This document shows positions 36,423 to 52,345 of a DNA stretch of 64,000 bases, piece after piece (the first letter of the stretch is position 1; each line of letters opens with the position of its first letter). Below the pieces are notes generated by a model, which was not told where the DNA came from, made no database searches, and saw nothing but the letters and a program-made list of their open reading frames with translations. The position numbers and the translations under genes are program-made. The DNA comes from Sulfuricurvum sp. (lineage in GTDB: Bacteria; Campylobacterota; Campylobacteria; Campylobacterales; Sulfurimonadaceae). Where the stretch lies: contig JAUYAU010000001.1 in assembly GCA_030693335.1 (NCBI GenBank), positions 139,796 through 203,795 of the forward strand. Reading direction: 5' to 3'.

Positions 36423-37478
36423 CTATATTTTTCTAATAGGCTCCGCTGAGGGCTTTCCATAATAATACCCTTGCGCCAAATCCGCACCTTCCTGCGCGCA
36501 AAAATTTGCTTCTTCTGCTCGTTCAATACCTTCGGCTAAAACGATAATGTTATTTTCTTTTGCGATTTGTACAATTGCACGAAAAATGGATTGATTCACA
36601 ATGTTGATATCAATGTGATCGATAATGTCTCGATCAATTTTGACAATGTCAGGGAGAAGTTTAGCGATCATATTTAGCGATGAATAGCCGCTTCCCACAT
36701 CGTCAAGGGCTACCATGAATCCTTGTGATTTATAAAAATCAAGAATCTTTTTCAGATGATCCAAATCGGAGACATAATCACTTTCGATCACTTCAAAAAT
36801 TATGTTTTTTGGGTCAAAATCGAGTTGTTTTGCCCATTTTACCGTTGATTGGAGGCAGTGCTGGGGATCATAAATAGCTGTGGGGATAAAATTTATAAAT
36901 ACTTTGGAGGAAATGTTTTTTACGGCGGCTGTTTTGAGTGACGTTTCCCGGCATGCACGATCGAGATAAAAGAGCATATTGCCTTCGCGACCCCATCTAA
37001 AAAGGGTATCCGGATAAATTAAATTTCCATCATCACTTACTCCGCGAGCAAGAGACTCATATCCATAAATAGTATTGTTTTTCATGTTAACGATGGGTTG
37101 AAAGTGAGCGGTAAGCGCCCCTTTTTCAATGAGGGTAGAAAGTTCTGTTGCTCCCATCAAATCTCTGTATTGTTGCAGTGTCTTCATTAATTTAAGCGTT
37201 GAAGGAGAAAGTGACACTCCTTTTTCTAAGAACAGCAAACTAATCCCTTCTCGTTCTACTCGTGTAAAGTTATGAAAGGTACACAGTGCTTCTAAAAAAG
37301 AAAAAAACTCTTCTATATTAACCGATAAGGTTTCGGAATCTTCGATTTGATAATGAAATTCTTTGAGGGATAAGTAATCTTTAATCTTATCTGCAAGTTC
37401 GCTAACGGCACAGCTGATGATCACATTTCCTTCTGATTTAGGAATAGAAGGTAAGGTTTGGCATTTTAGACAGCTCAT
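36423..37478 (-). CDS. EAL-domain cyclic-di-GMP phosphodiesterase, divergent from the BLUF gene
   Basis: This 351-residue cytosolic protein has an N-terminal ~105-residue region with CLKC at 3-6 and no clear fold, followed by an EAL domain. The signature reads ESL in YGYESLARG. Most catalytic or metal residues are kept: the Asn in FINFIP, IFEVIESD, LDDVGSGYSS, VKID, LAEGIE and QGYYYGKP, so activity is plausible. It is transcribed away from a stand-alone BLUF photoreceptor gene 134 bases off. In BlrP1 and E. coli BluF the two domains are fused, suggesting this pair is a split light-regulated phosphodiesterase. That link is inference. Confidence 0.88.
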   Translation of the reverse strand: MSCLKCQTLPSIPKSEGNVIISCAVSELADKIKDYLSLKEFHYQIEDSETLSVNIEEFFSFLEALCTFHNFTRVEREGISLLFLEKGVSLSPSTLKLMKTLQQYRDLMGATELSTLIEKGALTAHFQPIVNMKNNTIYGYESLARGVSDDGNLIYPDTLFRWGREGNMLFYLDRACRETSLKTAAVKNISSKVFINFIPTAIYDPQHCLQSTVKWAKQLDFDPKNIIFEVIESDYVSDLDHLKKILDFYKSQGFMVALDDVGSGYSSLNMIAKLLPDIVKIDRDIIDHIDINIVNQSIFRAIVQIAKENNIIVLAEGIERAEEANFCAQEGADLAQGYYYGKPSAEPIRKI

Positions 37479-37612
37479 GAGAAACCTTTTTTGTTTGTAT
37501 TATAGAAGAGTTCTTCGTTTATTGGTAGGTTTAAAATGTCAATTGCAATAGATTGTACGCCTATTGTGTCCACTAATAGTGTAAAATTAAAAAAAAATTT
37601 AAAAGGAAATGA
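37479..37612. promoter_or_regulatory. Divergent EAL/BLUF promoter region
   Basis: A perfect minus-strand TATAAT (37499-37504) lies 20 bases ahead of the EAL start. On the plus strand a weaker TGTAAAAT sits about 30 bases before the BLUF start, which has AAAAGGAAA as ribosome-binding site. No dyad or tandem repeat stands out. Confidence 0.5.
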
Positions 37613-38017
37613 TTGAAACGTTTAATTTACAGTAGTATCGCTTCGGATGATGTAGATTTTGATACTGTCGGGGAGATTCTAACGCATGCAGTGAAGAGAA
37701 ACAAAGAGAAATCCATTACAGGTATGATGATATACGATGGTCACTCTTTTCTTCAATGCATTGAAGGAGATGATCTGGTAATCAATAAGTTGTGGGAAAA
37801 ACTGAACACAGACCAAAGACACCATTTTCTTCATATCAATGGAGAGGAACATGATGAAAAACGGTTGTTCTCAAACTGGAATATGGGGTACATGAACAAT
37901 AGCCATGAGATACAAGAGATGATACGCAAAGTGACAGGACGTGAAAGCGCATCTTTTGAAACTTTGAGTTATCCCCATGCAAAGGTCCTATTGCTACAAC
38001 TTTCTTTTCTCCTCTAG
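37613..38017 (+). CDS. Stand-alone BLUF-domain blue-light receptor
   Basis: The 134 residues are almost wholly one BLUF domain, which binds FAD non-covalently. The key photocycle residues are all in place: Tyr6 (RLIYSS), Asn30 (KRNKEKSITGMM), Gln48 (FLQCIEG), Trp89 and Met91 (WNMG). A short helical tail (100-134) may contact a partner. The start is TTG at 37613, seven bases downstream of AAAAGGAAA; the nearby ATG is out of frame. There is no fused output domain, so it must act on another protein, with the divergent EAL protein as first candidate. It converges with the GGDEF-EAL gene. Confidence 0.93.
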   Translation: MKRLIYSSIASDDVDFDTVGEILTHAVKRNKEKSITGMMIYDGHSFLQCIEGDDLVINKLWEKLNTDQRHHFLHINGEEHDEKRLFSNWNMGYMNNSHEIQEMIRKVTGRESASFETLSYPHAKVLLLQLSFLL

Positions 38018-38038: not shown

Positions 38039-40129
38039 TTATTGCAATTTGTTTTTTAGCAAATTGATTAGATTTTCTTTGTTAATGGGTCTGGAATGAA
38101 TATAGCCTTGGATAAAACTCACTCCATTTTCGGCTAAAAATTGTTGTTGCTGGTCAGTTTCTACCCCTTCTGCAACTGTTTTAAGCCCCAATGCTTTGGA
38201 TAAAGCAACAATACTTTTGATGACAGTAGCCCCTTTTTCATCAATGCCGATTTTACGTATAAACGATTGGTCTATTTTTAAAATATCAACATCAAAATCC
38301 AGTAAATAGCTTAGAGATGAATACCCGGTTCCAAAATCATCGAGTGCTACTTTGATACCGATTTTGTGCAACTCGTGTATGATTTCTTTGGCTAAAAGAA
38401 TATCTTGCATGAGTTGGTTCTCAACAATTTCTAGAACTAAATGTTTTGGCTTAATACCGGATGATTGTATCATCGTTCGCAGTGTTGTTATAAAGTTTGG
38501 CATAAACAAAGTTTCGGTTGTAATATTGGCGGAAACACTCTGCGGTGCAATGTTAAGTGTTTCAAGCTCTCTGAATGTATCGAGTACCGTCTGTATGACC
38601 CAAAGATCAATATCGATCATGAGACCTGCTTTTTGGGCAATAGGTAAGAAATCATTGGGAGAGATCAACCCTTTTTTGGGATGATCCCATCGGATTAACG
38701 CCTCCATGCCAGTATAAGTTTGCGTATTGATTTCGTATAAAGGCTGATAAAATACAATGAGGTTATTGTTCTCAATGGCTGATTTTAACTCACTTCCTAT
38801 ACGAATATAGTCATTCGCCTTGTCCGTCATATGAGAGGAATAAAATCCAAATTGATGACGTCCTGCTTCTTTGGATGCGTACATTGCCGCATCAGCACTG
38901 CTGAGCAGTATTTCTGCTGTTTGGCCGTCTTGCGGATAAATACTAATACCGATACTGCAGGTACTAAATATTTTTTGTTCGTTGATGAGAAATGGTTCTT
39001 TGAATTGTTTTTGTATTTTTTCAGCTACCGAGGCGAAGTGTGTATCCGAGGCACCATTATCGATGATGAGTACAAATTCATCGCCACCTGTGCGGGCAAT
39101 AGTGTCCCCTTTTCGAATGACATTTTGTAGTCGTTTTGCCACTTGAACAAGAAGCAGATCGCCAGTGAGATGTCCTAGAGAATCGTTTACTTCTTTGAAA
39201 TGATCCAAGTCGACAAAAAAGATGGCGAACAGCTCACCGGAGCGGCTTTTATTTTCCACCATGTGATTAATACGGTCATCGAGCAATCGACGGTTAGGCA
39301 GATGCGTAAGTGCATCGTGCATTGAAAGATGTTGAAGTTTTTTAGTTTCGGTATCCAGTTGATTTTGAATAGAGACGTATTCCGTCATATCGTGTGTCGT
39401 CTCTAAATAGGCGATAATTTTTCCATCTTGATCAAAAATAGGTTTTGTGTGGACATCAACATCATGTTTTATACCGTGAGCATCGGTATGAATTTTTCGA
39501 AGTATTACCGATTTTTTTGTCGTATGGATGAGCCCCATGGCACACTGATTGTGCTGCCCACTGCAAGGAACAGAATTTTGATGAGAAATTTCGTAGCATT
39601 TTGGAAGATCTTTATTAGAAATATCACCTGAAAACTCTTTGGCTGCTTTGTTCATCATGCTTACGGTATGGTCGGGCAATATATAGAGGATAGGATCAGG
39701 CATTTCATCCATAATGGTTTGCATCATTTTACGAGAATCATCCAGTGATTTTTCAAGCGTCAGGATACGTGCTATTTTTTCCAAGGCAGTGAGTAAGAGG
39801 TGAGGATTGGTGGGTTTTAAAATATAGCTATCGACATGCAGTGCAATAGCTTTGATAAGCAAATGGGTGTCACTGAAAGCAGAATTGACAATAATGGGAA
39901 GATTGGGAGCTGATTCACGCATACGGGCAATCATCTCTAAACCACCAATTTTAGGTATTTGAATATCGGTTAGAACAATATCGGGAGACATTTTTTTAAA
40001 AAGGTCCAAGCCTTCTTCTCCATCGTTGGCGATGTAAATAATTTTAAAATATTCAGCAAAGGCACTGTGAAAAGCACGAACGGTTTCATCGTTATCTTCA
40101 ACGTATAAGAGTGAATAATTTTTAAGCAT
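38039..40129 (-). CDS. Response regulator with PAS, GGDEF and EAL domains
   Basis: This 696-residue cytosolic protein has a receiver (phosphoacceptor Asp55 in IVLTDIQIP), a PAS domain (about 135-255), a GGDEF cyclase domain with intact GGDEF at 348-352 and an RKGD I-site before it, and an EAL domain with intact EAL at 476-478, DDFGTGYSSLSYL, AEGVET and QGYIHSRP. Both catalytic halves look functional, so it could make or break cyclic di-GMP depending on phosphorylation. Its ATG overlaps the end of the CheB-CheR-kinase gene by 8 bases, so that kinase is its likely phosphodonor. It is the last gene of the LOV operon. Confidence 0.93.
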   Translation of the reverse strand: MLKNYSLLYVEDNDETVRAFHSAFAEYFKIIYIANDGEEGLDLFKKMSPDIVLTDIQIPKIGGLEMIARMRESAPNLPIIVNSAFSDTHLLIKAIALHVDSYILKPTNPHLLLTALEKIARILTLEKSLDDSRKMMQTIMDEMPDPILYILPDHTVSMMNKAAKEFSGDISNKDLPKCYEISHQNSVPCSGQHNQCAMGLIHTTKKSVILRKIHTDAHGIKHDVDVHTKPIFDQDGKIIAYLETTHDMTEYVSIQNQLDTETKKLQHLSMHDALTHLPNRRLLDDRINHMVENKSRSGELFAIFFVDLDHFKEVNDSLGHLTGDLLLVQVAKRLQNVIRKGDTIARTGGDEFVLIIDNGASDTHFASVAEKIQKQFKEPFLINEQKIFSTCSIGISIYPQDGQTAEILLSSADAAMYASKEAGRHQFGFYSSHMTDKANDYIRIGSELKSAIENNNLIVFYQPLYEINTQTYTGMEALIRWDHPKKGLISPNDFLPIAQKAGLMIDIDLWVIQTVLDTFRELETLNIAPQSVSANITTETLFMPNFITTLRTMIQSSGIKPKHLVLEIVENQLMQDILLAKEIIHELHKIGIKVALDDFGTGYSSLSYLLDFDVDILKIDQSFIRKIGIDEKGATVIKSIVALSKALGLKTVAEGVETDQQQQFLAENGVSFIQGYIHSRPINKENLINLLKNKLQ

Positions 40130-43100
40130 TAGGGGATACTTTCAGAGAAATAGTTGTTTTCATTCCGTCGTTTAGTGATTCCATTGCAATGGAGCCATTC
40201 ATACTGTTTTCAATAATCATTTTACTCATATATAGTCCAATTCCCGTTCCCTCTTTTTTTTCTTTGGTTGTAAAGTAGGGCTCAAATAAACGACCAATTA
40301 ATTCTTGGGGTACACCTCCACCGTTATCTACAATAATCATGCAAACGGTGTCATCGTCACACTCTACATTGATGCGTATGGTTCCATTTTGGTTTAATGT
40401 TTTGTTTATGGCATCTTTTGAATTATTGAAAACATTGAGTAATACCTGAGCAAATTCATTTTCAAACCCATAAATCTGTGCATCATTTTGATCGTCATAT
40501 TGGATAACAATACCCTGATTATCAAAGGTATCTTTGACAAAAGAGATGGTTCTTGTGGTGATTTCATAGAGTGAGAAAAGCTTTTTTGATTTATTAGGAT
40601 TGAAAAAATCTCTAAAATCATCAATGGTTGAAGACATGTGCTGTATGTTGTTTTGAGAATCTTCGACAAAGGCGGAAAACGAAGTATCATTAATGGTTTT
40701 ATTCTCGAATTTTTTTTGTATCCCAAAAAGATTTAAGGCTAAGGTGTTGAGAGGCTGTCGCCATTGATGGGCGATATTGCCGATCATCTCCCCCATACTA
40801 GCAAGTTTGGATTGCTGGAACATCAGTTCTTGGTTTCGGATAATGTCGGTTTTATCCGTGAAGCTTATGATAACACCGTAATCGTTTGTAGAGAGATTGA
40901 TTCGTTTGATTTGAAGCCAATAGATTCGCTGATCAATGGTCAAATCGTATTGAATCTCATTGGTGTTTTGTACCACTTTTTTAATGTCGTCAAAAAGATT
41001 TGGTATAGGGAAGTGCTCATTGATTATGATTTCACTGAGATTGATTCGGCTGGCGTTGGCAATTTCAAAAAATTTCTCAACCCCTTTGGTATGAAGAAAT
41101 AAATCAAGATTTTTATCCAAAATCAAGACATCGGTATTGATCACTTCGACAACTTTATTCAATGCTTCATTTACAAATGCCAGCTCACTGTTTTTATGTT
41201 CAAATTCATCGTTGACGGTACGCAGTTCCTCATTGGTGCTTTGCAGCTCTTCATTGGAGGTTTCAAGCTCTTCATTGGTACTTTGGAGCTCTTCGTTTGT
41301 ACTTTGGAGTTCTTCATTCGTGGATTGAAGCTCTTCGTTAGAGGTTTCGAGCTCTTCGATGGTGATTTGGAGACGTTCTTTGAGCGCCGAAAGTTCATTT
41401 TCGAGAATATTGAAATCATATCCATCGACGGTTTGTGGTTGATAAGAAGAAAGTTGGTGGGAAGTGTCTTTTTCATTAATATCATCAAAGGTGATAAAAA
41501 AACTGTTTTCAGACAGCTTGTTACGCCCCAGAGGAAATGCAGTTATAACGACGTAGTTACGCTCATCGCCCAAAGGTAATATGCGGATTTTTTTTGAGAC
41601 TACCGTTTGTTCGTTACGGATCACTTCACTGAGGGTTGCCCGCATGTCAAGACGTAAAAAATCAGATACTTGTTTATAAATATCGTTGGTAACAAGCCCT
41701 TGCGGATTAGAGATGTATTTGTTTTCACCTTTGAAAAACAAAATGGTTCCACTGCTGTCCACAACAACGCCATTGACTGCGAAAAAAGAGGTAACGGCAC
41801 TGTTGATGGAGGCATTTACGTCTAAGCTATTAACTTCGTCGCGTAATTTTTTAGAACCACGTTTGAACTCTTTTTTCTGAAAATACGCTAAACCTTCGAT
41901 GTCTACAACACCTGTGTCATTGGATTTGCGATAGATTTTGTATTTGTTGTCAACAATCGAAAAAAGATTAGTCAGCGTACCGATAGTTTCAGAAGATCCT
42001 AAAAACATGAGCCCTTGATAGCGCAGTGCATAGTAAAAAATACTCTGAACCCTCTGTTGCAAATCGGGATTAAAATAGATTAATAGATTTCGGCAGCTGA
42101 CAAAATCAAGACTCAAAAAGGGTGGATCTTTGATGACGTCATGTTTGGAAAAGACGATCATGTCACGGATACTTTTGATAGGGGTGTAACGTTGATTTTT
42201 TTCCACAAAATAGAGCTTAATAAGTTCTGGATGGACATGACTCACCTCCTCGACGCTAAAGCTTCGGCTTCGTGCTTCATCGATAGCTTCTTCGCTGACA
42301 TCGGTTGCGAAAATAGTTACTTTTTTGGTCATCCCCATTTTTTTGAGAAGTTCGCTTGTAACGATAGCGATGGAATACGCTTCATCTCCAAAAGCACATC
42401 CTGCTACCCACATACGAACGAGATTATCAAGTTTATCGGTGAGCATTTTCTCTAAGTGGGACTCAAGTGCGGCAAAAGCTTCTTTGTCTCTAAACAAAGA
42501 AGTGACGATAATCAGAAGCTCTTTTTTGAGATTCATAATTTCTGCTGGGGAGCGCTGGAGAAGTGTGATGTATTCATCGACACTTTCGGATTTAGTCTCC
42601 GTAATTCTTCGCTCCAGTCGGCGATGAATAGTCGCCTCTTTGTAATCGCTAAAATCAACATCGCCTTTGTGATTTAACAGACTAAAGACTTTATCGATGT
42701 TGTCCAATACATCGAAATGGCGATCAAAATAACTGGGGTCATCGATAGCGGATATGATCCCTTGCGCTAGAAGTTCAGGGGGAAGAACTGCATCGACGGC
42801 TTGTGTGTCGATCGCTGCTTTTGGCATTGAAAAATATTTAGCATTTTCATTTTGTGCTAGAGCGATTCCCCCGTTTTGTTTGATGGCCACAATCCCCTCT
42901 GCACCATCACTACCCGTACCGCTTAGGATGATTCCGATTGCTTTTTCTTTTTTTTCCAGAGCCAGTGATTTCAAAAAACGGTTAACAGAGGGTTTTGGAT
43001 ATGGTTTAAGTGGGGGAACCATCAAAAGAAATTGCCCATTTTCGATGACAAGGTCAAAATTAGGGGGACAAAAATAGATCGTATTCCCTTTTGGTTCCAT

Positions 43101-43328
43101 TGTATTTGTGATTTGAATAATGGGAATTTTGGAATATTTTTGCAGTAATGTGCCTAAAAGGGTAGGTTGTTTTGGATCAAGATGTTGCGTGATTATGTAA
43201 GTAATAGCATCGGAGGGTTCGATGTTTTGTATAAATTTTAAAAGAGCTTCAAATCCTCCCGCACTTGCCCCTAATCCAACGAGGGTTAAACTCTTGTATT
43301 CATTGGTGAGAATTGTTTTTTTTGCCAT
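40122..43328 (-). CDS. CheB-CheR-PAS-histidine kinase fusion
   Basis: This 1068-residue protein starts with a CheB methylesterase domain (1-190; Ser22 in GASAGGFEA, His49 in ITQHLDP, Asp in GTGSDGAEG). A CheR methyltransferase follows (about 210-480; HRRLERRI, VAGCAFGDEAYS with the SAM site). Next are a PAS region, a coiled coil of repeated STNEEL units (about 660-710) and another PAS. HisKA has His854 in IAHQWRQPLNTL, and HATPase has DNGGGVP and GTGIGLYM. There is no CheB receiver domain, so the esterase is not controlled in the classical way. It starts 4 bases after the LOV gene and overlaps the response regulator downstream. Such fusions are known, but inputs are mostly undefined. Confidence 0.92.
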   Translation of the reverse strand: MAKKTILTNEYKSLTLVGLGASAGGFEALLKFIQNIEPSDAITYIITQHLDPKQPTLLGTLLQKYSKIPIIQITNTMEPKGNTIYFCPPNFDLVIENGQFLLMVPPLKPYPKPSVNRFLKSLALEKKEKAIGIILSGTGSDGAEGIVAIKQNGGIALAQNENAKYFSMPKAAIDTQAVDAVLPPELLAQGIISAIDDPSYFDRHFDVLDNIDKVFSLLNHKGDVDFSDYKEATIHRRLERRITETKSESVDEYITLLQRSPAEIMNLKKELLIIVTSLFRDKEAFAALESHLEKMLTDKLDNLVRMWVAGCAFGDEAYSIAIVTSELLKKMGMTKKVTIFATDVSEEAIDEARSRSFSVEEVSHVHPELIKLYFVEKNQRYTPIKSIRDMIVFSKHDVIKDPPFLSLDFVSCRNLLIYFNPDLQQRVQSIFYYALRYQGLMFLGSSETIGTLTNLFSIVDNKYKIYRKSNDTGVVDIEGLAYFQKKEFKRGSKKLRDEVNSLDVNASINSAVTSFFAVNGVVVDSSGTILFFKGENKYISNPQGLVTNDIYKQVSDFLRLDMRATLSEVIRNEQTVVSKKIRILPLGDERNYVVITAFPLGRNKLSENSFFITFDDINEKDTSHQLSSYQPQTVDGYDFNILENELSALKERLQITIEELETSNEELQSTNEELQSTNEELQSTNEELETSNEELQSTNEELRTVNDEFEHKNSELAFVNEALNKVVEVINTDVLILDKNLDLFLHTKGVEKFFEIANASRINLSEIIINEHFPIPNLFDDIKKVVQNTNEIQYDLTIDQRIYWLQIKRINLSTNDYGVIISFTDKTDIIRNQELMFQQSKLASMGEMIGNIAHQWRQPLNTLALNLFGIQKKFENKTINDTSFSAFVEDSQNNIQHMSSTIDDFRDFFNPNKSKKLFSLYEITTRTISFVKDTFDNQGIVIQYDDQNDAQIYGFENEFAQVLLNVFNNSKDAINKTLNQNGTIRINVECDDDTVCMIIVDNGGGVPQELIGRLFEPYFTTKEKKEGTGIGLYMSKMIIENSMNGSIAMESLNDGMKTTISLKVSPNA
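41220..41352 (-). repeat. Tandem 21-bp units encoding the STNEEL coiled coil
   Basis: About six imperfect 21-base units within the kinase gene encode repeats such as ELQSTNE and ELETSNE, a heptad pattern. They form the signalling coiled coil between the CheR/PAS part and the kinase core. The repeat is coding, in frame, and typical of CheB-CheR fusion proteins. Confidence 0.8.
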
Positions 43329-43332
43329 ACGT

Positions 43333-44052
43333 TTATACTATTCCTTTGATTTGTTGCAATATTTTTTGCAGAGAGGTAACATCTTTTTGAACTCCAAGAA
43401 AATATTTTAATTTGTGTGTTTTTTTATCGAAAATAGGGCTTATAGTCACTTCATTGTAAATGAGTTGTCCCTCTTTGTGATAATTGCGTAGTATGACGGT
43501 GACATCGGTTTTTACTTTAATGGCGTATCGGATCTCATCCAGAGCCAATTGATCTCGGTCATCTCGCTGCAAAAAACGACAGTTTTTATCCAGTGCTTCT
43601 TCCGATGTATATCCAAACAATGAGGTAAAAGCATGATTGACATAAATAATCGGATTATCAAATTTGTTGGGATCGCTAATGGTGATCCCATTTTTGGCCT
43701 GATCCAATATCTCTATAAGATAATCTTTGAAATCGGGGATACTTTCCTCATTTTTCATCAATGCATAACGTCCGCCATAATAGTTAACGATAGTTAAGCA
43801 TGGAAGCTTTATACGAAGATTGCTAATTAAATTACGTATATGTTTGGGATTATAGTCATTATTGTCATCATCCCATATAGAGTAAAAAAAATCGGCAGGT
43901 GCAATAGGTTTACCATGATGATCAATAAAGATTTTAAGCAATTTTCTCATTTTAGAAGAGAGCATAACAGAATGATTGTTTAAGCTAACGGTTTGAGAAG
44001 TTTGATCCCAATAGCATTCGTGTGTTAATTTTATCATGAGCTGTTTATCCAT
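43333..44052 (-). CDS. Winged-helix/LOV blue-light-responsive candidate transcription factor
   Basis: This 239-residue protein has an OmpR-type winged-helix domain at about 10-98 (RNLISNLRIKL recognition helix, YYGGRYAL wing) and a LOV domain at about 118-228. The LOV core NCRFLQ (157-162) keeps the photoreactive Cys158. FMN-contact residues Arg159, Gln162, Asn190 (RNYHKEG), Asn200 and Gln222 (GVQKDVT) are all present. Blue light should form a Cys-FMN adduct and change DNA binding. No receiver domain is present. The order DNA-binding then LOV differs from EL222 (LOV then LuxR-type HTH). The ATG has a poor ribosome-binding site. It heads the operon with the CheB-CheR kinase and the GGDEF-EAL regulator and borders the lipid/redox operon, its probable target. 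Confidence 0.9.
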   Translation of the reverse strand: MDKQLMIKLTHECYWDQTSQTVSLNNHSVMLSSKMRKLLKIFIDHHGKPIAPADFFYSIWDDDNNDYNPKHIRNLISNLRIKLPCLTIVNYYGGRYALMKNEESIPDFKDYLIEILDQAKNGITISDPNKFDNPIIYVNHAFTSLFGYTSEEALDKNCRFLQRDDRDQLALDEIRYAIKVKTDVTVILRNYHKEGQLIYNEVTISPIFDKKTHKLKYFLGVQKDVTSLQKILQQIKGIV

Positions 44053-44065
44053 TAGATTGGATTTT

Positions 44066-44097
44066 AGCCAAAGAGTGTCGTTGAAGTGCCTTTGGCT
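44066..44097. promoter_or_regulatory. Inverted repeat in the leader of the LOV gene, candidate autoregulatory site
   Basis: AGCCAAAG (44066-44073) and CTTTGGCT (44090-44097) are perfect inverted 8-mers with 16 bases between, 13 bases ahead of the LOV start codon. It could be an operator or an mRNA hairpin near the start. A possible -10 TATACT (minus strand, 44155-44160) lies upstream. The rest of the 237-base gap (44053-44289) shows no frame or other signal. Confidence 0.45.
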
Positions 44098-44289
44098 TTG
44101 ATCGTTTTGTATTTAGAGTTGTGAGTTCTGTAGGTAGAGGGGTTAAGTGAAAGAAGTATAGGCAATGTGGAATGTTTTTAGTATGCTTTTAATGTTGTTT
44201 GGTGCCCTTAATCAATAAAAAGAGCAGCTATAGAGACATATTTAAAGCTCAGCGAATGACATTCTAAATCAGTCGTCTAAGCAATATGA

Positions 44290-44799
44290 TTATGCATCTA
44301 CTTGAGAAACTTCCGATAAGGTAGCATAGCGACCACGACCTAAAAAGAGGGTGGGGTGTTCGTTAACACTATCGTTTAGATGAAGCGCTGTAACATCAGA
44401 AATAAAGATAGTGTGATCACCGTTTTTATACGTATCGATGATGGTGCATTCATAGACATAATCGGCTTGATCGATAATATGATTTCCGTGAACATCACTC
44501 GTTTTTGAACTTAATCCAGAGGTTGACAGTTTATCGACATCATTTCCATGTACTCTGCCGCATTGATCGATTGCATCATAGTGATCAAATGAGAGGAAAT
44601 TGAGGGTGAAACTACCATGTTCTTTGAGAAGAGTGTGGGTGAAGTTTTCTTCTCGTATTGCAATTGCGTAGCGAAACGGTTCACGACTGATCGGCATGTG
44701 CCATGAAAGGGCCATTAGATTGTTCTGGCATGATAAAATCGCCGCCACTCTGGGCTGTGAGGGCAATTTTTGAGGCAGCGGTTGGTAGCGTGTAAACAC
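44290..44799 (-). CDS. Flavin reductase-like FMN-binding protein
   Basis: This 169-residue protein has the split-barrel flavin-reductase fold: ILSCQNNLMALSWHMPISREPFRYAIAI near the N-terminus, FTLNFLSFDH, and the ending FLGRGRYAT. It should bind FMN and reduce it with NAD(P)H or donate it to a partner oxygenase. The start is GTG 44799 behind a strong AAGGAGAC. It is the last gene of the lipid/redox operon, 20 bases after DUF3833. A flavin-handling enzyme next to FMN- and FAD-based photoreceptors is suggestive, but a role with the operon's oxidoreductases is equally likely. Confidence 0.83.
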   Translation of the reverse strand: MFTRYQPLPQKLPSQPRVAAILSCQNNLMALSWHMPISREPFRYAIAIREENFTHTLLKEHGSFTLNFLSFDHYDAIDQCGRVHGNDVDKLSTSGLSSKTSDVHGNHIIDQADYVYECTIIDTYKNGDHTIFISDVTALHLNDSVNEHPTLFLGRGRYATLSEVSQVDA

Positions 44800-44819
44800 A
44801 GGTGTCTCCTTGATTAAAT

Positions 44820-45356
44820 TTATGGGTTTGTTTTCATGATCGTAATGACCAATTCACCCACTTCAAATCCAAATTTCTTCATTTTTGAGTGGTTGAGTAT
44901 CACACCGTCATCTTGGAGATGGAGCCAGTCACGTACATCGATATTCAGTGTTCCATCTCCATATGGTATGCGCATTGTGTAATCGATCATCACAGTATTG
45001 CCACGTGCTTGCATCGAAGCATTACCTACGATATCGCCCGCTGTAGCGATGAACTTTTTATCACCGTTTGGTTTCATAGTCCAGGTGCGGTGAAGTTTTT
45101 CACCATCGTTATAAATAAAATGTTCATCGAGTGTTCCGACTCCGTTTGCATCCCAGCTTCCCATCAAATCCCCTTTAAACGTGCGGAGGATTTTTCCGTT
45201 ACGGTCTTTCACCATTCCGTAGGCTTTGAGTGGCCCGTTAAAATAGTTTTGGGGAATAAACTCGGGAGCGGTATTGTTAAAATCTTCCAGCTCCATGGAT
45301 GAACATCCGGTGAGCAACGTACATAGACCTAAGGTCAGTAAAGTTTTTATGTTCAT
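44820..45356 (-). CDS. DUF3833-family lipoprotein
   Basis: This protein of 178 residues has a lipoprotein signal (LLTGCSS, lipobox Cys near residue 18) and the DUF3833 pattern: LEDFNNTAPEFIPQNYFNGPLKAYGMVKDRNG and TWTMKPNGDKKFIATAGDIVGNA. It is probably anchored in the outer or inner membrane, facing the periplasm. The family is uncharacterised but recurs next to the cfa/DUF1365/FAD-oxidoreductase/photolyase genes. It overlaps the cfa-like gene by 4 bases. Confidence 0.88.
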   Translation of the reverse strand: MNIKTLLTLGLCTLLTGCSSMELEDFNNTAPEFIPQNYFNGPLKAYGMVKDRNGKILRTFKGDLMGSWDANGVGTLDEHFIYNDGEKLHRTWTMKPNGDKKFIATAGDIVGNASMQARGNTVMIDYTMRIPYGDGTLNIDVRDWLHLQDDGVILNHSKMKKFGFEVGELVITIMKTNP

Positions 45357-46579
45357 GATACGAGTCCTTGATTGAGGTGGGTGTTTGCATCGCGGGTGAA
45401 GACGACTTGGACGAGATTGATGTTGCGTGTTAAAAATCCTGCTTCACAATAGGTGAGATAAAGACGCCACATACGGATAAAATATTCATCAAATCCCAAT
45501 GCTTTGATGGAGTCGAGTTTGGCATGAAAATTGTCGTTCCACAAACGAAGTGTTTTGGCATAGTCTTCGGTAAACTCTTCCATGTGGAGAAGATTGAGTC
45601 TTGTATGGCGTGACGTTGTTTCCAACAGCTTTGAGACGCTTGGAAGATGTCCTCCGGGAAAGATGTATTTTTGGATGAAATCGGTACCTCGGCAGTAGGC
45701 ATCGTAACGCTGATCGGGAATAGTGATGATTTGCATCGCGATGACACCGTGAGGAGCGAGGAGCGATTCGCATTTTTTGAAAAAGACGTCAAAATATTCC
45801 CGTCCGACCGCCTCGAACATTTCTACCGCGATAATGGCGTCAAATTGCCCCTCCATATCTCGATAATCTTTGAGCATAATATCGATCATCTCATCGACGC
45901 CATGTTCGCTAAAGCGTTCCTTTGCATGTTTTAGCTGTTCGATGGAGAGGGTGAGTGTAGTGACATTTGAGCCGTAGTTTTTAGCAAGATGCGTTGCCAT
46001 TGACCCCCATCCTGAACCGATTTCGAGAACTTTTGCCCCCGGTTTTAAACGTAGTTTTTGGGCTAAATGATCGATTTTGCGTTTTTGAGCTTCGTGCAGC
46101 GAATCATCGGGAGAGGAAAAAATAGCCGAAGAATACATCATTGTTTCATCCAGCATGAGGGCGAAAAAATCGTTGGAGAGATCATAATGCTGTGAGATGT
46201 TTTTACGAGAACGGGTTTTGGAATTTTTACGCATCCAGTGACGGACACGGTTGAATTGCGGGAGAAGATTGTAAAGCGAAAAACGTTTCTCATGTTCACT
46301 TAGGGTTTCGAGATGTTGAGAGTTTTGCATCGCAAGGCTCATAAGCATCGTGAGATCGTCACACTCGAAATCTCCATCCATATAGCTCTCGGCAAATCCG
46401 ATGTCGCCATATAAAGCCAGACGTTTGAAAAAATCACTGGAGTTGATGGTGATATGAACGCTTTTTTCATGTAGATTACCGTAATTTTTTTGGGTTCCAT
46501 CGGGGTAAATCACATGTAACGATCCCTTTTGAAGTTTAGAGAGATAGCGATGTCCGATGCGATTCCAAAACCCTTTCAT
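45353..46579 (-). CDS. Cyclopropane-fatty-acid synthase-family lipid methyltransferase
   Basis: This SAM-dependent enzyme of 408 residues methylates unsaturated acyl chains in membrane lipids. Motifs are ISQHYDLSNDFFALMLDETMMYSSAIF, the SAM loop VLEIGSGWGSMA, AVEMFEAVG and FIQKYIFPGGHLPS. A longer frame opens 42 codons earlier, but the ATG at 46579 follows AAGGAG and overlaps the DUF1365 stop as ATGA, so it is preferred. In this gene setting, relatives in alphaproteobacteria have been linked to furan or methylated fatty acids made under singlet-oxygen stress; that role is carried over by analogy. Confidence 0.9.
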   Translation of the reverse strand: MKGFWNRIGHRYLSKLQKGSLHVIYPDGTQKNYGNLHEKSVHITINSSDFFKRLALYGDIGFAESYMDGDFECDDLTMLMSLAMQNSQHLETLSEHEKRFSLYNLLPQFNRVRHWMRKNSKTRSRKNISQHYDLSNDFFALMLDETMMYSSAIFSSPDDSLHEAQKRKIDHLAQKLRLKPGAKVLEIGSGWGSMATHLAKNYGSNVTTLTLSIEQLKHAKERFSEHGVDEMIDIMLKDYRDMEGQFDAIIAVEMFEAVGREYFDVFFKKCESLLAPHGVIAMQIITIPDQRYDAYCRGTDFIQKYIFPGGHLPSVSKLLETTSRHTRLNLLHMEEFTEDYAKTLRLWNDNFHAKLDSIKALGFDEYFIRMWRLYLTYCEAGFLTRNINLVQVVFTRDANTHLNQGLVS

Positions 46580-47325
46580 TGGAGCTCCTTTTTGAGTTGG
46601 TCTTGAGGTTGAGGCGAGGTCCATGTCAGTCCTTTTAATTTGAGGCGAAAGGTTTGCCATAACGTACGTGTTACGACAAAGAGACTTAAAAAAGTGTGAT
46701 TGCACAGCAGTGAACGGATGGTGGCGGTGCTAAATGCTCTTGCTTCTCCTTGAAAATCAGCCAGAAGCATTTTTTGGGTGTCATTAGAGAGATACACTTT
46801 GAGTCCAAAATGTTCTGCCGTATAGTTGAGAGAAAACGTATACGTTCCCTCATATCCCATAAACGGTGAAACGTACATGCTTTTAGGCACGGATGCTCTA
46901 AAATCTCCATGTTCGTCTTGCTGCAGGGTCATAGGATACAAGACACGTCCTCCGTTGTAGTTGTGCACTTCAGCGATACCATGGGTCGCTTTGCCGTTTT
47001 CATCCAACAGCAGTAGGATACTGATGGGATTAAAGACAAAATTAAAAATGCGGGGAAGGGTTAAGAAGCGTAATTGATACGGTTTTTCCCATCCAAGCGA
47101 GGTAATAAGGGTATGGGTGTTTTCTAAAAAATCATCGTTTTGACCAAAATGGTCACGTGCTAAAAAACTCATGACACCAAGACCTTTTTGGGAAAAAAAT
47201 CGGGTGTTGAGGCTTTTGAGATCATTGACATCAATATCGATAAAGAAATAATCATAGGTAAACGAGTGCTCTTTTGGAAAGAACCGTTTGTGATAAATTT
47301 CCCCCTCAAAAAAACGGTGATTCAT
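46576..47325 (-). CDS. DUF1365-family protein
   Basis: This protein of 249 residues is a full DUF1365 member: FEGEIYHKRFFPKEHSFTYDYFFIDIDV at the N-terminus, FLTLPRIFNFVFNPIS, VLYPMTLQ and VSPFMGYEGTYTF. It is a soluble or peripheral protein of unresolved activity. It nearly always sits between an FAD oxidoreductase and a cfa-type gene, as here, with 4-base overlaps on both sides. Involvement in modified fatty-acid formation is the usual proposal. Confidence 0.92.
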   Translation of the reverse strand: MNHRFFEGEIYHKRFFPKEHSFTYDYFFIDIDVNDLKSLNTRFFSQKGLGVMSFLARDHFGQNDDFLENTHTLITSLGWEKPYQLRFLTLPRIFNFVFNPISILLLLDENGKATHGIAEVHNYNGGRVLYPMTLQQDEHGDFRASVPKSMYVSPFMGYEGTYTFSLNYTAEHFGLKVYLSNDTQKMLLADFQGEARAFSTATIRSLLCNHTFLSLFVVTRTLWQTFRLKLKGLTWTSPQPQDQLKKELQ

Positions 47326-48557
47326 AGAGGTTCCCCCAGTTCTTTGGCGATGCGATTGGCACTCCAGAGTCCATCTTCATGAAATCCGTTTCTCCAATAC
47401 GCTCCAGCGTAGTAGGTATGATTGTGCCCACTGATCTCGCTGTAGCGTTTTTGTGCTTCAATCGCTTTTGCGTCAAATTGGGGATGTTCATAGGAGATGG
47501 TTTCGATGACATGATTCAGAGAAGCGGTTTCGTTGAGTGAGACAAAATAGTCTTTGGAACTTTTAATGTTTTGGAGACGATTTAGCCAGTATGAGAGGGT
47601 GACAGCGTCCGATTTTCCTCCGTTTTTATAATTCCACGCGGCGTAGATTTTTTTATTGGGATACAAAGCACCATTATCGTTATGCAAAACGGCATCATTG
47701 GCTTTGTATCCAAACGCGCCTAATATCTCTTGCTCTTGTGGTGTGGGCTCTTCAAGGAGTTTTAGCGCATCAGGTGCATGTACAGCGAGAACCACTGCAT
47801 CATACCTGATAACTGTATCGTTGGCAAAAATCAGCTCTATCCCATTTTGGGTTCGGTGAATACGGGCAATATCCGAAGAGGTAAGGATGTTTCCCGAGAT
47901 ATGGGGAATGATTTTTTCGACGTAGTTTTTTGAGCCTCCGCTGACGGTAAGCCATTGGTGTTGCGTGCTTACGCCAAGCAGTCCATGATTTTTAAAAAAC
48001 TGCAAAAATGTCCGCGCTGGAAACGCATGCATCTCTTCGCTGGGGGTGGACCAGATCGCTGCACCCATCGGGATGAGATAACGCTCTTTGAACACGGTGC
48101 TGTAAGATCCTAGATATTCCCCTAGTGTTTTATCGAGATTGGAAGAATCGGTATCAACATCACGATTGGCATTGGCATTAAACCTAAAAATATCGATGAT
48201 CATCCGATAGTGGGAGAAAGAGAAGATGTTTTTCTTTTGAAAAAAGAGTCCTCCCAGAGTCTGTGCATTGTAAGCTATATTGGAAAATGTATCCCAAAAT
48301 CCAAAACTCATGTCGCTGTGTTCAATTTTTACTTTGAGTTTCTCGAACAGTTTTGTTAACAGCGGATAGGTAGGATGATTAAAGACCAAAAAGCCGGTAT
48401 CGACCGCAAAACTTTTTCCCTCTTCATTCACCATTGTCGTGCGGGCATGACCGCCTAGACGGTTCTCTTTTTCATACAGATCAACGTTATGCAATGAACT
48501 CAAGAGATAGGCGCTTCCCAGACCGCTGATACCTGCTCCGATAACCGCTATTTTCAT
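47322..48557 (-). CDS. FAD-dependent amine-oxidase-like oxidoreductase (COG2907 type)
   Basis: This 411-residue flavoprotein has an N-terminal FAD fold (VIGAGISGLGSAYLLS, LYEKENRLGGHA) and a C-terminal end typical of the amine-oxidase/desaturase superfamily (YYAGAYWRNGFHEDGLWSA). VDTGFLVFNHPTYP is characteristic of the group found beside DUF1365 and cfa. It probably oxidises or desaturates an acyl chain, as proposed for alphaproteobacterial counterparts; the substrate is inferred. It overlaps both neighbours by 4 bases. Confidence 0.9.
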   Translation of the reverse strand: MKIAVIGAGISGLGSAYLLSSLHNVDLYEKENRLGGHARTTMVNEEGKSFAVDTGFLVFNHPTYPLLTKLFEKLKVKIEHSDMSFGFWDTFSNIAYNAQTLGGLFFQKKNIFSFSHYRMIIDIFRFNANANRDVDTDSSNLDKTLGEYLGSYSTVFKERYLIPMGAAIWSTPSEEMHAFPARTFLQFFKNHGLLGVSTQHQWLTVSGGSKNYVEKIIPHISGNILTSSDIARIHRTQNGIELIFANDTVIRYDAVVLAVHAPDALKLLEEPTPQEQEILGAFGYKANDAVLHNDNGALYPNKKIYAAWNYKNGGKSDAVTLSYWLNRLQNIKSSKDYFVSLNETASLNHVIETISYEHPQFDAKAIEAQKRYSEISGHNHTYYAGAYWRNGFHEDGLWSANRIAKELGEPL

Positions 48558-49072
48558 TTGTACCGTCCTTTTGGATCTTGAGGGGTGAAGATGAGGCGTT
48601 TGATGTTCATTGCAGAAGAGAGTTTATCCAAGATGGCTTGGAGCTTTGCTGGAGGCATTTGAGGGGTACGGCTCATGATCCATAGATTTTGCATATCCGG
48701 ACTTGCCATCACAGCGTATGCCTTGTTCTCATCCATATGGACGATGTGATATTCACGGGTAAATACCCAAAAATAGGTGAGTTTCAGTTTTGATGCGGAT
48801 TCATTTTCGAGGGTTTTCGCACTCCCTTCGTACACGATTAAATCGCCGCCGATAACACGATCAAAACAGCGATTGGTTACATCAAATCGGTTACGGTCGA
48901 TCAGATCGTATTGTACGGTTGCGGCAACGCAGTTTTTTTCATAATCGTTGTAGGTTCGTGCAATTTCGTACCACAATCCACTGAATTCTTTGGGTGATAG
49001 AGATGAGATTGCCTGAGGCTTACTGGCCAAAATCGCGGTAGAGAAAAAAAGGATAAAAACCATTGTTTTCAT
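48554..49072 (-). CDS. Bacterial lipocalin (Blc-like)
   Basis: This protein of 172 residues has a signal peptide (1-16). The lipocalin motif FSGLWYEIARTYNDYEKNC and a barrel-forming C-terminal half (YFWVFTREYHIVHMD, MSRTPQMPP) are present. There is no lipobox Cys, so it is likely a soluble periplasmic lipid carrier, unlike E. coli Blc. It starts a sub-unit after a 77-base gap with its own possible promoter, then overlaps the FAD oxidoreductase gene. Lipid carriage fits the surrounding lipid-modifying genes. Confidence 0.9.
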   Translation of the reverse strand: MKTMVFILFFSTAILASKPQAISSLSPKEFSGLWYEIARTYNDYEKNCVAATVQYDLIDRNRFDVTNRCFDRVIGGDLIVYEGSAKTLENESASKLKLTYFWVFTREYHIVHMDENKAYAVMASPDMQNLWIMSRTPQMPPAKLQAILDKLSSAMNIKRLIFTPQDPKGRYK

Positions 49073-49101
49073 GACAGGTACTCTTTATTATTAACATTAT
49101 G

Positions 49102-49143
49102 ACAATTCTATCTTTTTATACAATTCGTTCATATTCTTTTTAT
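49102..49143 (-). repeat. Imperfect tandem repeat in the lipocalin promoter region
   Basis: On the minus strand two adjoining units share ATAAAAAGA followed by TA and GAATTGT (49120-49143 then 49102-49119; the first has a 6-base insertion). A CATAAT -10 with TTGTAT 16 bases before it overlaps the second unit. Direct repeats here could be a regulator site, for example for the winged-helix LOV protein, but AT-rich DNA makes chance similarity possible. Confidence 0.4.
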
Positions 49144-49149
49144 GTCAGT

Positions 49150-50418
49150 TCAGGAGTCTCTTTGTTGTTTATGTATCAATAAGACAGCGCATAATTTAAG
49201 TATGACAGGCAAAGTTCCATAAAGCAAGCTAAGGGTTAATAAGGAATTTTGAGAGGGAGCAGCAGGGTCAAATCCGACAATACCCAAAATAACGAATCCG
49301 ATTCCTACGGCAAACGCCAATGAGAGTTTGGTCAACATGGCCCAAATGCCAAACAACACCCCTCCAAAGTTTTCATCCGGTTTTTGCAGCTTTTGGACGA
49401 TATCGGCTTGCATCGAGGAGGGAAGCGCCATATCAGCTCCCAATGAGAGTCCCGAAATGATTGTAATGAGTAAAAACGCATTGGCATCTCCGGCATTTAA
49501 AAAAGGGACAAAAGCAAAAGCGATCGAGGCTAAGATCATCGATAAACTCCAGCTTTTGGATTTTCCGATTTTGTTGGAAAGCCACGACCAAAATGGAAGT
49601 GCCACAATCCCTGCTGCAAAATAGACAAGTAAAAAAGTTCCTGTTTTTTGGGGAATTTTCAGTACAAGCTCGACATAAAATAAAAACAGCGTTGCGGGCA
49701 GGGCATTACCCAGCGAATTTAGAACAAATGCCCCTTGAAGTCGGTAAAGCTCAGGTGATTTTTTCCATAGATGGACAAGAGCCCAAAATGCAATTGCTGA
49801 TTGGCTTTTTAAAGCAGGATGATTAAGCCCAAAAAGATTTAGCGGGAGCATCATGAGCAATGTGATTAAAAAAGCACCGTACAAAAGCTGCAGACTCTGA
49901 TCAGGAGAGTGGGAAACATCATACAAATAGGGGATCAGAAGAGCCAGAATAAGCCCAAACATCGCAAAAAGCTCTCTGGCAGAACTAAGACGTGTTTTCT
50001 CATACGAATCGGTACTGATCTCTGCACTCCAAGCCAGATAGGGGATAGAAACAAGACTCCATCCAAAATAGACCAACGTGGAAAAAATAAACAGCCAAAG
50101 TACTTGATACGATGAGGGGGGATGGATAAGGGCATAAAAACTGATGATAAGTACGACTACCCCTACTGCGATAAACGGTTTGCGTTTTCCAAATCGGCTG
50201 TTGAATTGATCACTGGTATAGCCCAAAAAAGGGTCAATAAAAACATCACTAAGCCGCGCAAAAAAAAGAACCATTCCCACGACGGCTACGTTTAGATGAA
50301 GAGTTTGCGAATAATACGTAGGGAGGTAAATATACAGGGGAAGTCCCAGCATTGCCAAAGGGGTTGCGAGTGAGCCGTAGAAAAGTAAATCTTTTTTAGA
50401 GAGTGCTTGGGGTTGCAT
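49150..50418 (-). CDS. MFS transporter, GPH/MelB-like
   Basis: This 422-residue membrane protein has twelve predicted helices and GPH-cation-symporter features: YYSQTLHLNVAVVGMVLFFARLSDVFIDPFLGYTSD and RFGKRKPFI after helix 2. Relatives in photolyase/cfa clusters are often annotated as sugar transporters, but the position between SnoaL, SDR and lipocalin genes hints at a lipid-linked substrate. It begins 1 base after the SnoaL-like gene stop. Confidence 0.87.
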   Translation of the reverse strand: MQPQALSKKDLLFYGSLATPLAMLGLPLYIYLPTYYSQTLHLNVAVVGMVLFFARLSDVFIDPFLGYTSDQFNSRFGKRKPFIAVGVVVLIISFYALIHPPSSYQVLWLFIFSTLVYFGWSLVSIPYLAWSAEISTDSYEKTRLSSARELFAMFGLILALLIPYLYDVSHSPDQSLQLLYGAFLITLLMMLPLNLFGLNHPALKSQSAIAFWALVHLWKKSPELYRLQGAFVLNSLGNALPATLFLFYVELVLKIPQKTGTFLLVYFAAGIVALPFWSWLSNKIGKSKSWSLSMILASIAFAFVPFLNAGDANAFLLITIISGLSLGADMALPSSMQADIVQKLQKPDENFGGVLFGIWAMLTKLSLAFAVGIGFVILGIVGFDPAAPSQNSLLTLSLLYGTLPVILKLCAVLLIHKQQRDS

Positions 50419-50419
50419 G

Positions 50420-50824
50420 TTAACCCTTCAGATGTTTTTTAATTCGATTAAGTATAAACCCTAAGATCGGAATTTTTTCATAAACATTGGAAGCCGCATC
50501 CCAATAGTCGATATGGGAAACAACACGACCCTTATCATCGAAACGCACATGGCTGACCCCTTCAAAACGCTCTTGGCCATAAACAAAACTCCAGCGGATA
50601 AAGCCCTTTTTTTCATCTCCAATAGACTCGAGAATTTCAAATTTCGGGTTATCAAGTGTACGGTACATGTGACGGAAAATTTTTATGATGGCGTCTGCGG
50701 TATGGACTTCTTGAAACGGATCACGAAAATAGGCGTCGGGGGCAAAAACCGTGTGAAACACTTCATCGTCAAAATCAGCGTTAAGGTGTGCAAAAAAATC
50801 TCCGTAATTCTCGATGGGACTCAT
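50420..50824 (-). CDS. SnoaL-like / NTF2-fold protein
   Basis: This protein of 134 residues has the NTF2-like cone pattern: YGDFFAHLNADFDDEVFHTVFAPDAYFRDPFQEVHTADAIIKIF and RWSFVYGQERFEGVSHVRFDDKGRVVSHIDYWD. Small proteins of this fold act as isomerases, hydrolases or binding proteins. It is wedged between SDR and MFS genes (1-base overlap or gap), and homologues recur in the same cluster elsewhere. The exact reaction is unknown. Confidence 0.85.
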   Translation of the reverse strand: MSPIENYGDFFAHLNADFDDEVFHTVFAPDAYFRDPFQEVHTADAIIKIFRHMYRTLDNPKFEILESIGDEKKGFIRWSFVYGQERFEGVSHVRFDDKGRVVSHIDYWDAASNVYEKIPILGFILNRIKKHLKG

Positions 50825-51573
50825 TACAGCGCCTTGCCTGTCAGTTTAAGCGACCACCCATAGGGGAGAAATCGTACAAACGATAAAAACAAAGAGAGTG
50901 CTTTTGGAAACCGTATTTCAAAACCGCTTTCGTGCTCGAGTGCATCCGCAATGGCGCGTGCGGCATCTGCGGGTTCCATAAGTTGGGGCATAGTAAAGGT
51001 ATTTTTGCTTGTAAGCCGTGTTTTTACAAAACCGTGATTGATGATTTTGAGGTTTATCCCTTTGGCTTTGAGTTCTGGCTGTATCGATTCGGCGAGATTG
51101 ACCAGAGCTGCTTTGGGTGCGCTGTAAGCTCCTCCGTAGGGGAGACCAAAATAGGATGAAAGACTTGAATTCCAAACCCATTCCCCGTATCCTTGTTGGA
51201 TGAATTTTTGGGAAAGAGGGATCATCAGACGTACCGCACCCATATAGTTGGTTTGCATCATCTTCATAAACGAGTCACTTTTCCACGCGTCCATATGCAT
51301 CACTTCATAGGCTCCCGCATTGTAAAACCATGTGTCCAAACCGCCATAGGTTTCCCATGCGCTTTGGATGCAGTCGTTGATCCCCTCATCATGGCTTGCG
51401 TCCAGATCCAGTAATGCCAGCGTATTGGGATATTGTGCAAGGAGTTCTTGAAGGCTTGGTGATGAGGTCGCGTTTCGAGAACTGGCAATAAGACGGTGCC
51501 CGTCACTTAGCCATCGTTTGACGAGTTCCAATCCGATACCGCTGCTTGCACCAACGATCCAAATTCGTTTCAC
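50824..51573 (-). CDS. Short-chain dehydrogenase/reductase
   Basis: This classical SDR has 249 residues. The cofactor motif is GASSGIG (residues 8-14), followed by FYNAGA and the catalytic Ser and YSAPK (Tyr-X3-Lys). The basic residue after the glycine motif region (SSRN) favours NADP. The C-terminal hydrophobic end (FLSFVRFLPYGWSLKL) may touch the membrane. It overlaps glutathione peroxidase by 4 bases. The substrate is unknown. Confidence 0.9.
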   Translation of the reverse strand: MKRIWIVGASSGIGLELVKRWLSDGHRLIASSRNATSSPSLQELLAQYPNTLALLDLDASHDEGINDCIQSAWETYGGLDTWFYNAGAYEVMHMDAWKSDSFMKMMQTNYMGAVRLMIPLSQKFIQQGYGEWVWNSSLSSYFGLPYGGAYSAPKAALVNLAESIQPELKAKGINLKIINHGFVKTRLTSKNTFTMPQLMEPADAARAIADALEHESGFEIRFPKALSLFLSFVRFLPYGWSLKLTGKAL

Positions 51574-52109
51574 AACAGACCCTTTATGTCACTTTCGATT
51601 GTTTGAGGTGTTGTGGCAGGAGCATAACGGCGGATGACGTTGCCATTGCGATCGATGAGAAACTTCGTAAAATTCCATTTGATGGCTTCGCTTCCCAAGA
51701 TTCCCGGTGCTTGTTGCTTGAGATACGCATACAGAGGATGCGTGTGGGCCCCATTGACATCGATTTTAGAAAACATAGGAAACGTTATCCCATAGTTGAT
51801 ACGGCAAAAGTTTTCAATCCCTGCTTCATTTAGAGGCTCTTGTCCTGCGAACTGGTTGCAAGGAAATCCCAACACAACAAACCCTTTAGTCTGATAGGTT
51901 TTGTAAAGTTTTTCCAATCCTTCAAACTGGGGAGTAAATCCGCATCCGCTAGCAGTATTGACGATGAGAATCACTTTGCCTTTATACGGTGCCAGCGTTG
52001 TTTTTTCTTTTTTGATGGTGAGGATTTCAATATTATAAAGGGATTGCGGTTGTGCTGCCATGAGAGTACTCCATAAAGTTATGAGTAAAAGAAAAGTGAA
52101 TTTCATCAT
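51570..52109 (-). CDS. Exported glutathione-peroxidase-family thiol peroxidase
   Basis: This 179-residue protein has a signal peptide (1-19) and the GPx core. The peroxidatic Cys56 (not selenocysteine) is in NTASGCGFTP, the GFPCNQFAGQEP loop carries a possible resolving Cys, and KWNFTKFLID has the Trp-Asn pair. It should reduce lipid or organic hydroperoxides in the periplasm, probably with thioredoxin-like donors. Such defence fits an operon responding to photo-oxidative damage. Either of two adjacent ATGs could be the start. Confidence 0.92.
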   Translation of the reverse strand: MMKFTFLLLITLWSTLMAAQPQSLYNIEILTIKKEKTTLAPYKGKVILIVNTASGCGFTPQFEGLEKLYKTYQTKGFVVLGFPCNQFAGQEPLNEAGIENFCRINYGITFPMFSKIDVNGAHTHPLYAYLKQQAPGILGSEAIKWNFTKFLIDRNGNVIRRYAPATTPQTIESDIKGLL

Positions 52110-52116: not shown

Positions 52117-52311
52117 TTAGTGTTTGGGGGGAGGGTTATATTTTCCCTCTTTTATACCTTTGGATATTTTTTCCAAAGTATGCTTGGCTTGAAGCGTTTT
52201 ATTGACAGAATGATCCTGAAGCGGTAAAACAAAGGCAAGTAAAATAAAGATCAGACTAAAAACCAATCCTCCCAAAACTGCAAGAATAAGTTTTAGCTTA
52301 TTGTCATCCAT
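52117..52311 (-). CDS. Small single-pass membrane protein, first gene of the lipid/redox operon
   Basis: This 64-residue protein has one strong hydrophobic helix (residues 7-30) and a basic C-terminal tail ending PPPKH. No family was recognised. It lies 7 bases before the peroxidase gene, behind TATAAT (52340-52345). Its AGGAAGG ribosome-binding site is inside a perfect 7-bp hairpin, so translation may be regulated. Confidence 0.65.
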   Translation of the reverse strand: MDDNKLKLILAVLGGLVFSLIFILLAFVLPLQDHSVNKTLQAKHTLEKISKGIKEGKYNPPPKH

Positions 52312-52319
52312 AGATAGCC

Positions 52320-52345
52320 TTCCTAATCGTGTTAGGAATATTATA
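52320..52345 (-). promoter_or_regulatory. Operon promoter and hairpin covering the ribosome-binding site
   Basis: On the minus strand TATAAT (52345-52340) is followed at once by TTCCTAA, five bases, and TTAGGAA. The right arm contains most of the AGGAAGG Shine-Dalgarno of the 52117-52311 gene. The inverted repeat can be an operator at the transcription start or a hairpin hiding the ribosome-binding site. Confidence 0.5.

Follow-up and report, generated by a model that had tools for sequence, protein, structure and literature searches.

A LOV/winged-helix protein of Sulfuricurvum as a candidate blue-light regulator of a conserved c-di-GMP operon

Sulfur-oxidising Campylobacterota are not usually regarded as light-responsive. 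A 64,000-nucleotide stretch of a Sulfuricurvum sp. genome (hereafter the window) nevertheless encodes a protein for which a first-pass annotation had proposed that a DNA-binding domain and a light-sensing LOV domain are joined in a single chain, raising the question of whether this protein is a light-switched transcription factor and, if so, which genes it controls. The gene (43333..44052, minus strand) encodes 239 amino acids and was delineated from the open reading frame, Pfam and structure-database matches, an alignment of relatives and a predicted structure; the annotation had named no strand, and the plus strand of the same interval is closed by stop codons. It is a genuine conserved gene, and a chance reading frame is excluded.

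The protein consists of a winged helix-turn-helix (residues 6-99), a linker helix (108-118), a LOV core (about 120-225) and a C-terminal helix (226-238). In Pfam both domains score above their curated cut-offs, Trans_reg_C over residues 27-83 (28.3 bits, cut-off 26.2) and PAS_9 over residues 120-225 (68.5 bits, cut-off 27). A profile of the N-terminal domain matched effector domains of the OmpR family, namely CssR (4e-8), DrrD (2e-5) and ToxR (4e-4). Structure prediction, which the annotation had suggested as a check together with the domain search, returned a winged-helix topology with high confidence: in the AlphaFold2 model four N-terminal strands (6-10, 13-16, 21-24 and 27-29) precede three helices (33-44, 52-59 and 69-82), of which helix 69-82 occupies the recognition position, and a wing hairpin spans residues 87-99 (strands 87-91 and 95-99). 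The pLDDT is mostly 78-94 in the winged helix, about 56-76 in the LOV part and poor in the linker; helix 108-118 runs into the LOV core and helix 226-238 closes the chain. Pfam, the structure relatives, the N-terminal profile and the predicted structure all bear out the proposed union of an OmpR-type winged helix with a LOV domain.

For the PAS part, every one of the closest solved structures is a LOV protein: a LOV-activated diguanylate cyclase (8c05, E=5e-28), short LOV proteins of Pseudomonas, YtvA, aureochrome and EL222. The LOV motif reads KNCRFLQ and carries Cys158 at the cysteine of GxNCRFLQ, the flavin-contact residues Arg159, Gln162, Asn190, Asn200 and Gln222 are complete, and a strict DNA pattern for NCRFLQ has a single match in the 2.17-Mb genome, which is the regulator gene. 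The six key residues thus lie in the window protein at the numbers first assigned to them; they are not kept across the family. From these residues the window protein is predicted to bind FMN and adduct photochemistry is expected of it, which cannot be assumed family-wide. No Response_reg match was found in the regulator by Pfam, the winged helix beginning at residue 6, and no bZIP match was found either. The helix-turn-helix and LOV domains therefore share one chain with neither a receiver nor a kinase, the arrangement that defines bacterial HTH+LOV one-component regulators.

A search of 228 genomes of the same family identified full-length orthologs in 31 other genomes at 42-65% identity, and three further orthologs came from Sulfurospirillum or Sulfurospirillaceae MAGs. 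Among the named genomes scanned, Campylobacterales alone yielded full-length relatives (Sulfuricurvum, Sulfurimonas, Sulfurospirillum and unclassified MAGs), confirming that the architecture recurs in this group as the annotation had proposed to check; matches outside the order, in cyanobacteria, Listeria, Bacillus and Flavobacteriia, cover the LOV part only. A tree of the comparison set of 35 regulator proteins resolved two fully supported clades, A (n=24) and B (n=11). Recognition helix and wing are kept in both, and Arg73, Arg80 and Tyr92-Gly93-Gly94-Tyr96 are invariant in the alignment.

The gene neighbourhood points to cyclic-di-GMP. Four base pairs past the regulator stop codon begins the gene of a conserved downstream neighbour (40122..43328, minus strand), a CheB-CheR fusion of 1068 amino acids with a C-terminal HisKA-HATPase histidine kinase, and this gene overlaps by 8 bp that of a receiver-PAS-GGDEF-EAL protein of 696 amino acids (38039..40129, minus strand), in which both the GGDEF and the EAL motif look intact. 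Most clade A members share the order regulator, CheB-CheR-kinase, receiver-GGDEF, at spacings of 5-7 bp and about -5 bp. In clade A the regulator gene stands first in the operon or, in four members (L062, L065, L067 and L068), alone; in clade B it stands last, in the order (CheB-CheR-kinase), GGDEF-EAL, regulator. Judged from this arrangement, the genes for the regulator, the CheB-CheR-kinase and the receiver-PAS-GGDEF(-EAL) enzyme make up one tight operon, which the annotation had missed. An EAL-domain protein encoded further downstream (36423..37478, minus strand) is possibly an associated part, since in locus L053 its relative comes immediately after the GGDEF-EAL gene.

A conserved sequence element precedes this operon. 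Upstream of the start codon, clade A shares the consensus GRCACTT-N4-GRYACTNTT-N4-TANRAT, in which GRCACTT-N4-GRCACTT forms a direct repeat with an 11-bp period just ahead of a -10-like box. The window sequence, GGCACTTCAACGACACTCTTTGGCTAAAAT (44061..44090, minus strand), contains GGCACTT-N4-GACACTC, with half-sites at 44090-44084 and 44079-44073, and the -10-like hexamer TAAAAT at 44066-44061. The -10 box and the ATG are separated by 8 nt (44053..44060, minus strand), within the 5-8 nt seen in nearly all of clade A, and a leaderless or near-leaderless mRNA is therefore predicted. The repeat was found in 23 of the 24 clade A relatives, in which the regulator gene is first or alone, including the three Sulfurospirillum-type MAGs, and in clade B it precedes the first gene of the operon, not the regulator, in 10 of 10 cases. 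Among the stand-alone genes, a third repeat is present in L062 and L065, a 1-bp shift occurs in L067, and L068 lacks the element. For winged helices of the OmpR/PhoB type, head-to-tail repeats are usually spaced at 11 bp. Together with the domain architecture, this conserved predicted operator at the gene's own promoter supports the original proposal of a single-chain LOV/winged-helix regulator that binds DNA.

The element was located by scoring the window with a position weight matrix and by matching whole genomes against the pattern. In the 2.17-Mb genome of the window the repeat pattern is matched perfectly once, at the regulator promoter. With the -10 box added to the repeat, the pattern gave perfect matches in 15 of 20 genomes of clade A, in every case at the regulator promoter, and in 0 of 36 genomes without the regulator gene (Fisher 1e-9); since the first set had served to derive the pattern, what is informative in this comparison is that matches are absent from the rest of those genomes and from the second set. 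From this co-occurrence we infer that the regulator binds the GRCACTT repeat. A broad regulon in the window genome was rejected: matches at 2-3 mismatches are about as numerous as those of a reversed-pattern control, and those examined lie mostly within coding genes. The second-best site in the window (15291-15320) is antisense within a dihydrolipoamide-dehydrogenase-like gene, and the half-site GACACAAT, which together with TACAAT precedes the EAL gene (about 37550-37570), scores below zero and is wrongly spaced for the repeat. Genome G117 has one additional perfect match, 30 bp upstream of a gene for a GGDEF protein, and two weaker matches precede genes for a chemotaxis receptor (G117) and an RTX-type adhesin (G066); as regulator sites these extra targets are suggestive only. 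Separately, contig C1 of G087, a genome without the regulator, carries five identical copies of AGCACTTTAACAGCACTTTTTGGCTAAAAT, which probably belong to a repeated element. Two genomes of the same genus in which the regulator was undetected also have near matches, GACACTTTCTTGACACTTTTTAGCTATAGT for example (G069 C126:4375-4404; G072 C5:63110 and C5:67635), where another OmpR-type regulator or an undetected copy is possible.

Taken together, these observations make it probable that the protein is a soluble one-component blue-light switch that regulates its own c-di-GMP operon through tandem half-sites. FMN held in the LOV domain would form an adduct with Cys158 under blue light, and the signal would be relayed by the LOV beta-sheet and by the helices that flank the LOV core (108-118 and 226-238) to change how two winged helices pack together. 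These would bind head-to-tail to the two GRCACTT half-sites 11 bp apart, at about -36 to -19, and binding would switch the operon of regulator, CheB-CheR-histidine kinase and receiver-PAS-GGDEF(-EAL) enzyme, so that light would alter c-di-GMP signalling. Both the light dependence and the c-di-GMP output are predictions. The box of a classical class II activator sits farther from the -10 box than these half-sites do, and repression is therefore as natural a reading as activation: half-sites at about -36 to -19 can occlude polymerase, and the fixed distance to the -10 box could equally reflect activation. Higher expression in light is favoured, whether by activation or by lifted repression, because both EL222 (PMC4428443) and the PmSB-LOV/PmlR2 pair of Pseudomonas mendocina (PMC9758184) raise expression in light.

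Further photoreceptor genes occur around the regulator. In the window, a short BLUF protein (37613-38017, plus strand; 84 bits) is encoded divergently from the EAL gene, and this BLUF/EAL pair is a second candidate light input to c-di-GMP. DUF523/DUF1722 and photolyase genes follow the EAL gene on the same strand, the photolyase gene at 34103-35419 (minus strand). Phytochrome genes are present in 9 of the 228 genomes of the family; the regulator is found in five of these nine as well (Fisher p=0.003), each time with a phytochrome gene inside the regulator locus. Heme oxygenase genes stand beside the phytochrome gene in L061 (12067-15217), L064 (14818-17929), L063 (1171-4408) and L069 (5379-8535), and the L064 phytochrome, of 843 amino acids, has an HD-GYP/GGDEF output. 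In L061 a further gene (about 8000-9595), 34 bp upstream of the regulator, encodes a phytochrome photosensory core that stands alone, with no output domain.

Across the family the sensor is less uniform than the DNA-binding part. Cys158 is changed to Ser in L061, where Gln222 is also changed to Glu, to Pro in L068 and L069 and to Ile in L049, which the tree resolves into three changes; clade B has Tyr or His in place of Gln222 throughout and often Glu or Asp in place of Asn200, and the L063 regulator ends early at its C-terminus. Given the losses of Cys158 and the change of Gln222 in clade B, not every member can function by adduct chemistry, and light sensing by the regulator is, on these residues, not universal in the family. 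Within clade A the LOV domain is compromised in 3 of 4 phytochrome-linked members and in 1 of 20 others (Fisher p=0.008, a value that ignores shared ancestry). One tentative explanation, which we regard as possible and somewhat doubtful, is a hand-over of sensing: an ancestral LOV switch on the c-di-GMP operon would in some lineages have been joined by a phytochrome, and there LOV photochemistry would have decayed while winged helix and operator stayed, leaving an operon that would now answer red light or redox in place of blue light.

The same replacements bear on an alternative in which the LOV domain is a flavin redox or oxygen sensor, working through photoreduction or a semiquinone instead of a cysteinyl adduct, with the DNA-binding part and operator unchanged. 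That operon and operator persist where Cys158 has been replaced, in three independent lineages, and where Gln222 has, throughout clade B, speaks for it; so does the habit of the hosts, which judged at genus level are micro-oxic sulfur bacteria. Against this, Cys158, Asn190, Asn200 and Gln222 are retained in the window protein and in most members of its clade, and light is indicated by the genes for phytochrome, BLUF and photolyase nearby, making a redox sensor unlikely here. More improbable again is a reading in which the winged helix serves for docking to the CheB/CheR-kinase or the GGDEF protein while a different regulator binds the repeat. The tight conserved linkage to signalling genes would fit such a role, as would the wing sequence YGGxY, unusual beside the RGxGY wing motif of OmpR proteins, whereas the operator is retained at stand-alone genes that lack kinase and GGDEF partners, the motif is absent from genomes without the regulator gene, and its 11-bp head-to-tail geometry is that of OmpR/PhoB-type binding.

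Lowest of all we place the idea, raised in milder form by the first-pass annotation, that the regulator chiefly controls the adjacent photolyase and UfaM-type lipid cluster. The lipid/redox cluster (44290-52109, minus strand), recognised by its gene content, does adjoin the regulator in the window; an equivalent cluster in Pseudomonas mendocina is light-induced through MerR-type and LOV proteins (PMC9758184), and in L058 a DUF523-photolyase gene lies 56 bp upstream of the regulator. This is, however, the only one of 31 ortholog loci in which a photolyase adjoins the regulator, and the lipid cluster is present in none of the 31. The predicted operator scores 27.8 at the regulator's own promoter versus -11 upstream of the lipid cluster, including the interval 52312-52369; of the two DNA probes originally proposed for binding assays, 44053-44289 thus contains the predicted operator and 52312-52369 does not. 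The cluster promoter has instead a different, inverted repeat, TTCCTAA-CACGA-TTAGGAA (52320-52338), just after a TATAAT-like box and ahead of a reading frame of 64 amino acids with a membrane-helix-like N-terminus (52117-52311), which may be the operator of another regulator. With no operator and no conserved linkage, the cluster was rejected as main target, and the suggested control of lipid/redox and photolyase genes was not upheld. The cluster itself, comprising a flavin reductase, DUF3833, a CMAS resembling cyclopropane/furan-fatty-acid synthases, DUF1365, an amine oxidase-like protein, a lipocalin, an MFS protein, SnoaL, an SDR and a glutathione peroxidase, is similar to the phrB/ufaM cluster that light induces in Pseudomonas (PMC9758184); the window genes examined included no MerR/LitR-type regulator.

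The preferred reading, a LOV-controlled winged helix acting on its own c-di-GMP operon, has partial parallels among known systems. EL222 of Erythrobacter litoralis is likewise a bacterial chain of about 220-240 amino acids with LOV and DNA-binding domains, and acts as dimers on paired half-sites (PMC4428443). It differs in having an N-terminal LOV domain followed by a LuxR/GerE-type HTH, where the present regulator places an OmpR-type winged helix first, and in recognising two RGNCY half-sites as opposed to the predicted GRCACTT-N4-GRCACTT; with reversed domain order and another DNA-binding family, the regulator was not classed as EL222-like. Aureochromes, the bZIP-LOV proteins of stramenopiles whose DNA binding is tuned by LOV dimerisation (PMC4721966), share the N-terminal effector and C-terminal LOV, but theirs is a bZIP effector in eukaryotic algae; in the absence of a bZIP match and with Trans_reg_C as effector, this assignment was rejected for the bacterial protein. 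From OmpR/PhoB and ToxR/CadC, which share the winged-helix family and tandem repeats with an 11-bp period, and in the case of ToxR/CadC the N-terminal winged helix, it differs in lacking receiver and transmembrane segment and in having a C-terminal LOV domain as sensor; without a receiver it is not a two-component response regulator of the OmpR/PhoB type. PAL (ANTAR-LOV, PDB 6hmj) is a further bacterial LOV protein with a nucleic-acid-binding effector and an unusual domain order, which differs in binding RNA through its ANTAR domain and in having an additional PAS domain; the match to it covered 213 alignment columns at an rmsd of 20 A, which is no real superposition. PmSB-LOV and PmlR2 resemble the regulator in LOV-mediated blue-light control of transcription, and differ in pairing a separate short LOV protein with a MerR-family repressor, functions that the regulator combines in one chain, and in their target, inferred here to be a c-di-GMP operon.

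One-component HTH/LOV regulators are already known as a class: HTH+LOV or LOV+HTH proteins make up 8 of 1390 bacterial LOV proteins (PMC4844311), and the regulator is therefore a variant within it. What is new is the N-terminal OmpR-type winged helix, the predicted operator and the conserved c-di-GMP operon; in the literature searched on winged-helix/OmpR LOV regulators and on LOV proteins in Sulfurimonas or Sulfuricurvum, this architecture was not found described. Few of the bacterial LOV proteins described so far are single-chain transcription factors. Since both its operator and its start site are predicted, and natural variants either keep or lack the reactive cysteine, light-dependent DNA binding is directly testable in a protein of 239 amino acids, which could also serve as a compact optogenetic switch. 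For sulfur-oxidising Campylobacterota themselves, the findings suggest that a c-di-GMP operon is under the control of light.
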